DNA of 42,309 nucleotides, taken from Candidatus Gastranaerophilales bacterium. Its GTDB lineage: Bacteria; Cyanobacteriota; Vampirovibrionia; Gastranaerophilales; Gastranaerophilaceae. Below the pieces are notes generated by a model that was not told where the DNA came from, searched no databases, and was given only the letters and a program-made list of their open reading frames with translations. Shown piece by piece: positions 10,913 through 40,956 of the stretch. The position numbers were made by a program, and so were the translations under genes. The number at the start of each line of letters is the position of its first letter. Position 1 is the first letter of the stretch. The stretch lies in contig CALUVR010000019.1 of assembly GCA_944324285.1 (NCBI GenBank), forward strand, positions 1 through 42,309, given 5' to 3'.

Positions 10913-11410
10913 ATGAAAATAAATTCCGTTTCGTTTACGGGTTACGATAAACCGCAAAATTTTAAACGTATTGATAACAACGTAATGCGCTCGGCGCAGC
11001 CAGAGGCGGAAGAAATTGTCTGGCTTAAGAAAAACAAAAGTCTGACAGATATTATTAATTTCAGAACGCTCGTTGTTCCGGCAACTGATTTTAATGAGAA
11101 AAAACTTTCAGAAGCTCTTTATATAAAATACCATTCAATTCCGACAGAAACCAAACACCCGAAAATCAGTGATGTGAAAAAGTTTTTGAAAGTGATTGAT
11201 GATGTGAAAAAGCAAGACGGACAGGTGCTTATTCACTGTAAAGCAGGTGCAGACAGGACAGGATTTTATTCGTTGATTTATAAAGTTCTGAACGGGCTTG
11301 ACAACTTTGATAACGCTGTGAAAGAAATGCTTGAGATGGGTTATCATCAGGACAGATACCCATTTTTAACAGAAATTGCAAAAGATTTCCTGAAAAAACT
11401 CCGCAAATAA
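10913..11410 (+). CDS. Dual-specificity/tyrosine phosphatase-like protein
   Basis: The 165-aa protein carries the Cys-based phosphatase loop HCKAGADRTG (108-117), with nucleophile Cys109 and phosphate-binding Arg115. It also has an early MRSAQP segment (25-30), as in bacterial DSP-like enzymes. It is likely a cytoplasmic protein or small-molecule phosphatase; the substrate cannot be told. Its N-terminus MKINSVSFTGYDK contains a SFTG motif shared with unrelated proteins elsewhere in this window. No good ribosome site precedes the ATG, so it may depend on the 63-aa ORF upstream. It abuts the convergent macB-type gene with no spacer. Confidence 0.8.
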   Translation: MKINSVSFTGYDKPQNFKRIDNNVMRSAQPEAEEIVWLKKNKSLTDIINFRTLVVPATDFNEKKLSEALYIKYHSIPTETKHPKISDVKKFLKVIDDVKKQDGQVLIHCKAGADRTGFYSLIYKVLNGLDNFDNAVKEMLEMGYHQDRYPFLTEIAKDFLKKLRK

Positions 11411-22358: not shown

Positions 22359-22412
22359 AAACGTGACATTTAGTCACCTTTTGTTCGGCAGAGTCGCAAG
22401 GGGAGGACAAAA
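22359..22412. repeat. 54-nt exact dispersed repeat, copy 1
   Basis: Identical base for base to 33890-33943. It contains GTGAC atttа-type spacing to GTCAC (a 5-bp stem) and a GGGGAGGAC end. Looser similarity continues for about 40 nt to the GT8 gene end. Both copies stand just downstream of a minus-strand gene in the same orientation. Confidence 0.85.
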
Positions 22413-22470
22413 TCTTAAAATTCATTGCACTAAGAAGTTAACAATGCCCTGCTTGAGCGGGGGAAAATTG

Positions 22471-33583: not shown

Positions 33584-34003
33584 TTAATACCCCTGCTTAG
33601 AATATACTACAAACCTTTTTTTTTAGCAAGTTTCAGGCTGATAAAATATAATCTTTGAAAAAATTTATTACACAGACTTTTTCAATTGGAATGATCCGTT
33701 AATAAAAATTTTGACCTGTTGTTTTTATTTTCTCAACACGCTTCCGCACATGCTCTTGCTATCGTTTCGAAAACAAAAACAACAGTTCTCTTTTCATCTT
33801 TTGAATAAAAAACGCCCCTCAATATGGAATTTGTTAACTTTTCATTGATAACCCCTCCTCGAAATCAAAGATTTCGGTCACCTCTCACAAAACGTGACAT
33901 TTAGTCACCTTTTGTTCGGCAGAGTCGCAAGGGGAGGACAAAAAATGATAAAATTTGCACCAATGAAATGTTAACAATCCCCTCAAGGAGGGACTTTTCT
34001 TTT
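33584..34003. repeat. Gene-free region with a 54-nt repeat copy
   Basis: There is no credible gene in these 420 nt. The right half has a hairpin CGAAATC/GATTTCG (33860-33876), the second copy of the 54-nt repeat (33890-33943) and a TCCCTC/GAGGGA stem just after the minus-strand gene stop. The left part is A/T-rich with no structure I can support. Confidence 0.6.
33890..33943. repeat. 54-nt exact dispersed repeat, copy 2
   Basis: Identical to 22359-22412 over 54 nt, with weaker similarity to about 33980 (GTTAACAAT...CCCT is shared). As with copy 1, the unit lies within about 65 nt downstream of a minus-strand gene, in the same orientation. Confidence 0.85.
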
Positions 34004-34900
34004 TTAACCTTGAGCTTTTTCTGCTTCTTTTTCTTTTTTGTGAGCGAGATATTTTTCGCAAAGGATGTTTGCAGGTTTCGTAACCGCTACCGGTACTAAG
34101 TATCTGTATACAAGTCCAAATACGAGCATTGTTTTGAGTTTACCCATACCGCTGATTTTCCTTGTCAGATTTTTTACTTCGTCAGGCGTACCGAGGTAGT
34201 TACCCAGACGTTTTTTCAAAAATTTCTCAGCCTTGACTTTTTTATAATCCTGCAATTCTTCTTTTACTAATTTTCTGCCTTCTTTTTTAGCCGCAGCTTT
34301 CAGCGCATCATTTGCTTTCTTGATTTCAGCATTTTCTGCTTTTGCTTTTGCAACTTCTTCATTAAATTCTTTCAAAAGGGTAAATTTTTCATCGTTGCAT
34401 TGACCGGAAGCATATCTTACAGTCATCTTCTGCCACCAATCTGAAAGTGAAGTATCTATCAGGTATGCACCCGCAGTTGATAAAACAAAGGTTAAGAACT
34501 GGTTCACCGCAAGTGTTTGTTTTCTGTCTTTATCCATTTTGTCATTGGTTAAAGTTTTATACATATACATGCCCGATGTTATCGCAGATCCAACTGCCAG
34601 AAAGTGATTGAATAATAAATCGCTTTCTTTTACTTTGTTGGTAAATCTATCAGTAAATTCGTTATCAAAAATTTTCGGGATAACTTTTTTACCCATCCAA
34701 TCTCCGATACTGTCATAAGCTTTTTCAAATTTTTTAGCAATTCTTTTGAAAAATTTTGACTTTTTTACTACAGATTCTGCAACCGTGTCTGCCCCACCGG
34801 AAAATGCCGGAGTATATTTAACAGAAAAATTATTTTTTCTAGAATTATTGTAATTGTTAGCACCGTATTGAGGAGTATAATTGTTAAATGAAACTTTCAT
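34004..34900 (-). CDS. Membrane protein with N-terminal FSG motif (298 aa)
   Basis: I do not recognise a named family. The N-terminus is Asn/Tyr-rich and disordered (to about 30), then TPAFSGGADTVAESVVKK with Phe33-Ser-Gly35. A helical hydrophobic segment is near 92-112, a second at about 133-152 follows a basic KMDKDRKQTLAV loop, then comes a long charged, Ala/Lys-rich coiled coil (about 180-245) and a third hydrophobic segment (about 255-280) with a basic tail. Its architecture matches the upstream neighbour step for step. The stop of that neighbour overlaps its start region by one base, so the two are co-translated. Confidence 0.75.
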   Translation of the reverse strand: MKVSFNNYTPQYGANNYNNSRKNNFSVKYTPAFSGGADTVAESVVKKSKFFKRIAKKFEKAYDSIGDWMGKKVIPKIFDNEFTDRFTNKVKESDLLFNHFLAVGSAITSGMYMYKTLTNDKMDKDRKQTLAVNQFLTFVLSTAGAYLIDTSLSDWWQKMTVRYASGQCNDEKFTLLKEFNEEVAKAKAENAEIKKANDALKAAAKKEGRKLVKEELQDYKKVKAEKFLKKRLGNYLGTPDEVKNLTRKISGMGKLKTMLVFGLVYRYLVPVAVTKPANILCEKYLAHKKEKEAEKAQG

Positions 34901-35796
34901 TAGTTAGCTCCTCCTTTCACATCTGCGTTTGATTTGTGTATAAAATTTTCCATTCCTAAATGACTCTTTTTTACATTTTGTTCTTGGTTAACAGACTGTG
35001 CCTCTGTCTGCTGAGGTTTTGGCTCGGATTTTTTCTTTTCAAGTCCGAATACGTATTTCAAAATCGGAGGGATTAAAGCAATTGTTAATATAGAACGAGG
35101 AATTGCAATTACCCATTCCGTAATATTTTTCATTGAAAGCTGCATTGCATCTATTTGCGCTCTGAGTGCTTTCTTTTCAATTTTTGCAGCTTTATCGGCT
35201 GCCAGTTTTTCCAATTCCAAAATTCTTCCGTACTTTTTATCAAGAAGTTTAAATTTATGTTTTAAAGGAGGTACATCTGTATTGATATCCTTACCAGCCT
35301 TAATATTTTCAATCATCTTTTCGTAATGATTTTTGTAATCATCCATTACGTTTTTAACCCCCTGATCCCAAGGGCTTGTAACGATTGTGGAGGCAACAAA
35401 ACCAATAAGACCTGATGCCATCGAGTGCCCGGAAGCATAAATCTTATCTTCTTTGTCTTTCTTACCAGGAAGTGCCATAATTGTTGCCGGTCTTAATATC
35501 CCTGCAAGTATCAATGCGATGAATGCACTTGCCGCAATATTGTGATCTTCCGCAAAACCTGTAAGCCAGTTATAAGGCTTACTTGCAAAAATCTTATCAA
35601 CCACGCCTGTTTTTATAACACTAGCGGCAACCTCACTCTTACCCGTAAAGTTGCCGCTAAATTTATTTTTATCCTCTTTTACTCTTTTGCCATACAAACC
35701 CGCACGCTCTTTCTCCTTGAAGTTATGCGGGTCTTTAAAGACCGCAGAGGAACCCTGTTGAAGGGTTGTATTATAATTTATTGCATTAATTTTCAT
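34900..35796 (-). CDS. Membrane protein with N-terminal FSG/FTG motif (298 aa)
   Basis: From ATG 35796 (MKINAINYNT), preceded by GGTGGG, it is 298 aa; an upstream ATG at 35826 has no ribosome site. A disordered, Lys-rich head contains KFSGNFTGKSEVAASV (45-60). Hydrophobic segments lie near 85-105 and 125-150 (SGLIGFVASTIVTSP) around a KKDKEDK loop. A charged helical stretch (about 160-225) and a last hydrophobic segment (WVIAIPRSILTIALIPPIL) follow, then a Gln/Lys-rich tail. It looks like a distant paralogue of the next gene. Function unknown. Confidence 0.75.
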   Translation of the reverse strand: MKINAINYNTTLQQGSSAVFKDPHNFKEKERAGLYGKRVKEDKNKFSGNFTGKSEVAASVIKTGVVDKIFASKPYNWLTGFAEDHNIAASAFIALILAGILRPATIMALPGKKDKEDKIYASGHSMASGLIGFVASTIVTSPWDQGVKNVMDDYKNHYEKMIENIKAGKDINTDVPPLKHKFKLLDKKYGRILELEKLAADKAAKIEKKALRAQIDAMQLSMKNITEWVIAIPRSILTIALIPPILKYVFGLEKKKSEPKPQQTEAQSVNQEQNVKKSHLGMENFIHKSNADVKGGAN

Positions 35797-35912: not shown

Positions 35913-35944
35913 AAGAAGATGAAATTCAGGATTTTCATCTTCTT
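35913..35944 (-). terminator. Terminator after nadC
   Basis: A perfect 12-bp stem (AAGAAGATGAAA at 35913-35924 with its complement at 35933-35944), 8-nt loop, is followed on the minus strand by a TTTTCC run. It stands about 47 nt after the nadC stop and ends the nadB-nadC run. Confidence 0.7.
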
Positions 35945-40320: not shown

Positions 40321-40956
40321 ATGTTAATAAGAAAACAAAACCAATATTGTACTTTAAATAGAATTAACAGTACCCCAACAAGCAATAAATATAAAAATTA
40401 TACACCTATCTCACAAGATAGATTATCATTTACAGGAACCATTATTAAAAGAATTAACAGTAAAGATGAAATTAAAAAAATTTTAGATTTATTTTATGAT
40501 TCATTAGTATACAATCTTGAGCCAAATAAAACACAATCTAAATTTTTAAGAAAAATAGACCGTTATATATCAATGCTGCCATTTTCAATAGCGTCAAAAC
40601 AACCCAACAGTATCACTGAGGTGATAGAAAAAGAAAATCAACTTATCGGTGGGTACTCAATGAATATAAACCCGCTAAAATCTAGTGCTCATTTAGGATT
40701 TATTACTTTGGCACCAGAATACATCAGAACAAAGGCAGGTATTGAAGCTTTAAAAAAATTAGGAATAAGAATTTATGAAAATGCAAATGCAAATAATGTA
40801 AAAGAATTAACTTGGACAACTAACTCAAAAAATAAAAATATAAACAATTTATTAAAACGTCTAGGTGCTGAAAAAGTGAAAGAAATTGCATTGGGTGAAG
40901 CTGAATATAAAATTTCAATTAATGACTTAGGGAAAAAATTATATAATTTAGTATAA
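40321..40956 (+). CDS. GNAT-like acetyltransferase with N-terminal SFTG motif
   Basis: The 211-aa protein has an Asn/Lys/Tyr-rich head ending in DRLSFTGTIIKRI (Ser36 to Gly39), then a domain with GNAT character. That domain shows central strands QLIGGYSMNINP and SSAHLGFITLAPEYI, a helix KAGIEALKKLGIRIYENA, strand ELTWTTNSKN and the closing NLLKRLGAEKVKEI, like the usual NxxxxxLYxRLGF end. The acetyl-CoA loop is not clearly canonical, so activity is uncertain. AAGGAG is 6 nt before the ATG. The gene is A/T-rich, like the rest of the segment after the tRNA. Confidence 0.65.
   Translation: MLIRKQNQYCTLNRINSTPTSNKYKNYTPISQDRLSFTGTIIKRINSKDEIKKILDLFYDSLVYNLEPNKTQSKFLRKIDRYISMLPFSIASKQPNSITEVIEKENQLIGGYSMNINPLKSSAHLGFITLAPEYIRTKAGIEALKKLGIRIYENANANNVKELTWTTNSKNKNINNLLKRLGAEKVKEIALGEAEYKISINDLGKKLYNLV

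Follow-up and report, generated by a model that had tools for sequence, protein, structure and literature searches.

A conserved and recurrently fused pair of overlapping genes probably encodes a membrane heterodimer in Gastranaerophilales

Two adjoining genes, here termed P2 (upstream) and P1 (downstream), of a Candidatus Gastranaerophilales bacterium, a gut-dwelling and non-photosynthetic relative of cyanobacteria, probably encode an obligate 1:1 membrane heterodimer (rough probability 0.62), which would have arisen by an old duplication, be translationally coupled and combine a polar and charged core with heads carrying an F-x-G motif. The support for a heteromer is indirect, stemming from the comparison of related loci: the genes overlap by a single nucleotide in 67 of 73 separate pairs, have been fused recurrently, and lack the internal ribosome-binding site once fused. 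As the earlier note had reported, the window (the whole 42,309-nt stretch of DNA analysed) contains two adjoining frames of 298 codons on the minus strand, at 34004-34900 and 34900-35796. The features of the locus are as follows.

34900..35796, minus strand: P2, upstream gene, 298 aa, three hydrophobic segments
34004..34900, minus strand: P1, downstream gene, 298 aa, three hydrophobic segments
34898..34902, minus strand: TAATG, the P2 stop and P1 start with a 1-base overlap (TAATG in 67/73 separate pairs)
34910..34914, minus strand: GGAGG, putative Shine-Dalgarno sequence of P1, in conserved Gly-Gly codons of the P2 tail
35913..35944, minus strand: terminator-like hairpin between nadC and P2 (pattern match only)

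The upstream gene can be read as an open frame of up to 308 aa, from 35826, but its relatives start at MKIN (35796). Given the terminator-like hairpin before P2 and approximately 400 bp without a large frame between P1 and the next gene, the two genes would seem to form a transcript by themselves, as judged from pattern matches. The neighbouring genes, which by eye we take to be nadB, nadC, a HEAT repeat gene, queC and a DUF366-like gene, are housekeeping genes that differ between genera and thus give no clue to function. Immediately 3′ of P1, at 33815-34005, lies a palindromic MITE- or REP-like dispersed element; it has 30 matches across the genome, among them a second site in the window (22359-22450), a predicted folding energy of -64.5 kcal/mol (z -4.83) and no match in Rfam.

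Both products display the order of elements listed in the earlier note, namely, an FSG motif, an xVAxSVxK-type stretch (TVAESVVK in P1 and EVAASVIK in P2), hydrophobic segment 1, a loop rich in Asp and Lys (NDKMDKDRK in P1 and GKKDKEDK in P2), segment 2, a charged stretch, segment 3 and a basic tail. The long coiled coil that had been placed between segments 2 and 3 did not hold up as a shared feature: its length is not conserved, and distant members of the P1 family can have as few as ~190 aa. The heads, the charged stretch and the tails are the variable parts of both families.

We examined the gene junction in the best 80 of 130 P2 relatives identified by a scan of genome contigs, a set that is biased toward closer relatives. 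The partner adjoins in each of the 80 named loci, always in the order P2 then P1, so that the pair, as the earlier note had suggested, is indeed kept together; the two genes are separate frames in 73 of these loci and a single fused frame of 497-544 aa in the remaining 7. Among the 73 separate pairs, 67 overlap by 1 nt, all with TAATG, and two by 4 nt, giving 69 with a short overlap of 1 or 4 nt; overlaps of 7, 11 and 29 nt occur once each, the start in the last case being uncertain. One of the 73 loci, L114, has TAATG in the DNA, yet its downstream frame is interrupted. In another locus (L074:5106-7871), two pairs are found in tandem (P2 P1 P2 P1), with each junction overlapping by 1 or 4 nt.

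The GGAGG sequence lies within P2, 9 nt 5′ of the P1 start, and coincides with a Gly-Gly dipeptide present in the tail of 63/63 P2 family rows. Across the 67 TAATG pairs from the best 80 of 130 relatives, the first tail Gly codon is GGA in 66 and GGG in one, whereas in the P2 bodies GGA accounts for 391 of 1,211 Gly codons, and GGAGG is found at a constant spacing from the P1 start in 66 of the 67. In the fused proteins, Gly-Gly or Ala-Gly is retained, but is encoded by GGC-GGN, GCC-GGA or GCA-GGA, and GGAGG is present in none of the 9 fused rows examined, which represent 8 distinct proteins (L139 and L071 being one protein) from two clades. The choice of GGA in the separate pairs, together with the loss of GGAGG in the fusions, indicates that Gly-Gly is conserved, at least in part, at the level of RNA and that the ribosome site was apparently dropped once the genes had fused.

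In 488 kb sampled from the window genome, 13 of the 267 same-strand junctions, this pair included, are overlaps of 1 nt. Short overlaps are reported to be enriched among genes for subunits of heteromeric complexes (PMC10666635). With 1-nt-overlap pairs coupled by termination-reinitiation, P2-P1 shares TAATG, an adjacent Shine-Dalgarno sequence and a probable heteromeric product; it differs from them in that its coupling is deduced from sequence and that its Shine-Dalgarno sequence doubles as the Gly-Gly of the protein and is lost on fusion.

The two genes could also be neighbours through operon history only, without joint work of their products, and other overlapping neighbours at the locus are likewise conserved. 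Among loci from the best 80 of 130 P2 relatives, nadB and nadC overlap by 11 nt in 38 of 43, and HEAT and queC by 8 nt in 37 of 41; the 4-nt overlap between queC and the DUF366-like gene is less well kept (17 of 34). Because such unrelated neighbours overlap in a conserved manner too, a conserved overlap alone does not prove a complex. Nevertheless, we consider mere operon history very unlikely: the flanking genes change (nadC and nadB are each found upstream of the pair in 44 of these best 80 of 130 loci, with other genes elsewhere), whereas the pair is unseparated in all 80, and both its repeated fusion and its paralogy speak for joint function.

When distant relatives are counted in, 29 of the 104 units examined are fused. 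On a midpoint-rooted FastTree phylogeny of the joined domains with 104 tips, parsimony yields 7 changes between the fused and separate states, a count that is approximate because some of the nodes are poorly supported. Nearly half of the fused units (14 of 29) correspond to a compact paralogue of ~340 aa, which occupies a second locus in many genomes, including that of the window. One copy (L067:7039-8058, the same as G000 C3:65038-66057) encodes 339 aa with an internal IPFSG linker, and similar proteins are encoded in second loci of 13 other genomes. Like the pair, the compact paralogue comprises a P2-like half and a P1-like half, here joined by an F-x-G linker in a single chain; unlike the pair, it is fused in all 14 cases examined and is far shorter than P2 and P1 combined.

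The earlier note had taken P1 and P2 for old paralogues of low identity. Their identity is indeed at the level of noise (BLASTP E 0.37), and profile-profile comparison recovered a relation that is likely, if unproven, with moderate support (hhalign P 6.5e-5). In this best-controlled comparison, in which halves of the compact paralogue were added to the family alignments, P2 and P1 matched with a score of 40.4 and a probability of 64% over 85 colinear columns, compared to 23.5 for a reversed profile and at most 25.3 for 30 window-shuffled profiles. We rate the support as moderate because smaller or otherwise built alignments gave variable values: a probability of 6.5% (P 0.0056) with 37+37 rows, 11.8% (P 0.0025) with 62+63 rows, and 66% (P 5.6e-5) with 82+83 rows, falling to 28% (P 6.3e-4) when query and target were exchanged. 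The two halves of the compact paralogue, compared with each other, gave 21.6% only, in a short off-register match, and hhalign detected no match of its N half to P1 or of its C half to P2. The P1 profile picks up several P2 proteins (E 3e-5 to 5e-4), and all P1-P2 family alignments are in one register, covering helix 1, the charged loop and helix 2. Taken at face value, the profile matches suggest that P1 and P2 are likely products of an old duplication.

Hydrophobic segments, located as peaks of the 19-residue Kyte-Doolittle (KD) mean, are the following.

34562..34618, minus strand: P1 segment 1, residues 95-113, KD peak 1.16
34457..34513, minus strand: P1 segment 2, residues 130-148, KD 1.48, with N133, S141 and T142; D149 just after
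34082..34138, minus strand: P1 segment 3, residues 255-273, KD 1.53, with R266 and P270 in 62/62 rows
35470..35526, minus strand: P2 segment 1, residues 91-109, KD 2.09, with R102-P103 in 63/63 rows
35380..35436, minus strand: P2 segment 2, residues 121-139, KD 1.21, with H124, S128 and S136; D144 just after
35059..35115, minus strand: P2 segment 3, residues 228-246, KD 1.82, with R/K234 and T238

The conserved residues are located within and beside these segments. Invariant in 62/62 P1 family rows are S109, G110, Y112, T116, N133, S141, R266 and P270, with D149 in 61/62; invariant in 63/63 P2 rows are R102, P103, S128, G132, S136, T238 and P243, with H124 in 62/63, D144 in 60/63 and Arg or Lys at position 234 in 63/63. 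At matching places, both proteins carry Ser (Thr), Asp and one basic residue. In P1, the segments are only weakly hydrophobic, with family mean KD peaks of 0.91, 1.21 and 1.68 for segments 1-3, and it is therefore not certain that they span the membrane; the means for P2 are above those of P1 (1.90, 1.57 and 1.82). If all three segments of each protein span the membrane, the second half of a fused chain would be inverted, and the KR means of the segment flanks show a charge pattern without clear opposite bias between P1 and P2.

Weakly hydrophobic helices that contain charged residues, in a probable heterodimer, bring to mind insertases of the Oxa1/YidC/EMC3 type, for which three-helix heterodimers, such as Get1-Get2, EMC3-EMC6 and TMCO1-OPTI, are known. 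The Pfam family EMC3_TMCO1 (PF01956, Oxa1 superfamily) was matched by one P1 member (E 0.0038) and one P2 member (E 0.0056). Neither of these best values lies above the curated cut-off, however, and the matches are confined to 1 of 62 P1 and 1 of 63 P2 members, with the window proteins missing. Furthermore, the segment order of P1 and P2 is helix-helix-charged stretch-helix, unlike the helix-coil-helix-helix order of Oxa1 members, and the genome already has its own gene that by eye appears to be YidC-like (L069:387-1481). An insertase pair is thus highly improbable. A looser likeness is to small membrane proteins that work in pairs as heterodimers or fusions, such as the paired SMR transporters, which, like P2-P1, are paralogous, co-encoded and sometimes fused; P2-P1 differs in having three hydrophobic segments rather than four, long disordered heads, and no sequence or fold match to them.

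The view of the earlier note that the proteins match no nameable family was borne out, as neither P1 nor P2 matched Pfam, NCBIfam or PDB sequences, and no fold match was obtained in the PDB. Searches of Pfam, NCBIfam, PHROGs, PADLOC and PDB sequences returned matches at chance level only, and literature searches retrieved nothing on this pair. Matches to CagA_N, Colicin and MalF_P2, seen in one to three members, were dismissed as compositional, and a role as a phage defence or phage protein was rejected, with no match in PADLOC, PHROGs or viral contigs.

For structure modelling, an alignment that combined the fusions with rows of P1 and P2 was discarded, its P2 rows having fallen on the P1 half, and a smaller alignment (49 of 131 rows), which proved correct in a local trial, was used. 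AlphaFold2, given the natural fusion L148 plus 48 other rows, returned a model (pLDDT 73.9, pTM 0.61) with predicted helices 83-106, 109-149 and 184-219 in the P2 half and helices 332-354, 360-404 and 451-516 in the P1 half, the helix order being the same in both. P2 modelled alone (P0002 with 62 further rows) gave a poor model (pLDDT 55.3, pTM 0.38), which would fit, without proving, a need for a partner; as the queries differ, the two confidences can be compared only loosely. A Foldseek search of the PDB with the fusion model found nothing at E 0.001 (best E 0.71), and VIA-align gave a best Z of 5.7, to an unrelated helical protein, with matches spread over unrelated helical proteins.

The FSG motif singled out by the earlier note is present in both proteins, but F-x-G is not peculiar to the pair, as it precedes other proteins of the genome.

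34796..34804, minus strand: F-S-G of P1, residues 33-35, with F33 in 61/62 family rows
35641..35661, minus strand: FSGNFTG of P2, residues 46-52 (FSG 46-48), with G48 in 62/63 rows

The motif was found in 43 of 72 P1 heads (5.0 expected) and 69 of 72 P2 heads (9.0 expected), and F-x-G precedes the P1 half in 29/29 fused proteins (27 assessed from junctions, L216 and L210 from sequences). This strong retention, along with the weak hydrophobicity of the P1 helices, would agree with a membrane scaffold, in which the helices merely anchor and the F-x-G heads do the work by recruiting proteins to the membrane. The invariant columns, however, lie mostly in the hydrophobic segments rather than in the heads, and we regard the scaffold as a conceivable but rather unlikely alternative to the heterodimer with a polar core.

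Elsewhere in the window genome, F-x-G occurs near the N terminus of an AAA ATPase, a CheR-type methyltransferase, an HNH protein and two proteins that by eye we take to be phosphatase-like and acetyltransferase-like. Polar, probably disordered N termini ending in F-x-G are found on unrelated proteins encoded in the window at 10913-11410 and 40321-40956 (both on the plus strand), and further cases are present in L067, L068, L160, L161, L166, L167, L170 and L176. In the 488-kb sample, the pattern was matched by 24 of 432 predicted genes, compared to a mean of 6.8 (maximum 17) in 200 shuffles, and by 4 of 340 internal windows, with the proviso that it was composed once examples from this genome were known, and that some of the 24 are plainly due to chance (e.g. 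a UvrA-like P-loop). In 80 other loci, the 409 neighbouring genes, most of them housekeeping, showed no excess (4 versus 5.4). A lineage-wide F-x-G motif is accordingly a lead; that it serves in docking or processing, with P2-P1 and their paralogues as the membrane machinery of an unrecognised targeting system, seems to us quite unlikely. Locus L176:11003-14424 encodes tandem proteins of 569 and 566 aa, each with an N-terminal F-K/R-G and no clear Pfam family, which are perhaps another paralogous pair of similar style. Larger proteins with similar hydrophobic segments and an internal SFGAI or TFTGN are encoded by L068:8377-9984 and L069:8519-9796, with no Pfam match above the cut-off.

Under the favoured reading of P2 and P1 as a heterodimer, the two subunits would have arisen by an old duplication, either within the Gastranaerophilales or at their base. 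The Shine-Dalgarno sequence in the last P2 codons combined with TAATG is an arrangement known for termination-reinitiation and would ensure coupled 1:1 synthesis. The unit would be pseudo-symmetric and built of six hydrophobic helices, three from each subunit; in both halves, helix 2 appears to retain a Ser(-Thr) and, at its end, an Asp, and helix 3 a basic residue. As the invariant residues cluster in the helices and the heads, loops and tails vary, a polar intramembrane core is the most likely working part, and may serve in the passage or holding of a substrate or in tight packing of the subunits; the disordered F-x-G heads would probably serve to dock it onto a partner. The weakest step in this scheme is that from a heterodimer to a transport-like core, and the biochemical role of the unit can be inferred only weakly.

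Single-sequence searches of 191 genomes of the family matched P1 in 163 and P2 in 183. The P2 profile matched 171 of 386 genomes of the phylum, 168 in the family of the window and 3 in its order, and gave no match in the 10 listed genomes from another order of the same class, the other misses being listed as the same phylum or without a name. The P1 profile matched 179 of the 192 genomes of the order, with weaker matches outside the window family, where 11 of the 13 misses also fall. The named relatives belong to Gastranaerophilales, namely, Candidatus Scatousia, Ca. Gastranaerophilus and unnamed metagenome-assembled genomes (MAGs); a few relatives labelled Brachyspira, Fusobacterium or Clostridiaceae are taken to be mislabelled MAGs. 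No relative of the pair was found in the viral contigs searched. As sampled here, the P1 and P2 families are confined to the order Gastranaerophilales. In a gut family that is common and largely uncultured, the pair is nearly universal, and no copy was detected in the rest of the cyanobacterial phylum as sampled, which makes it a candidate core, lineage-defining membrane component that lacks annotation. It also provides a natural experiment, in which most species would couple the two genes through a Shine-Dalgarno sequence within P2, whereas others make a single chain without the site.
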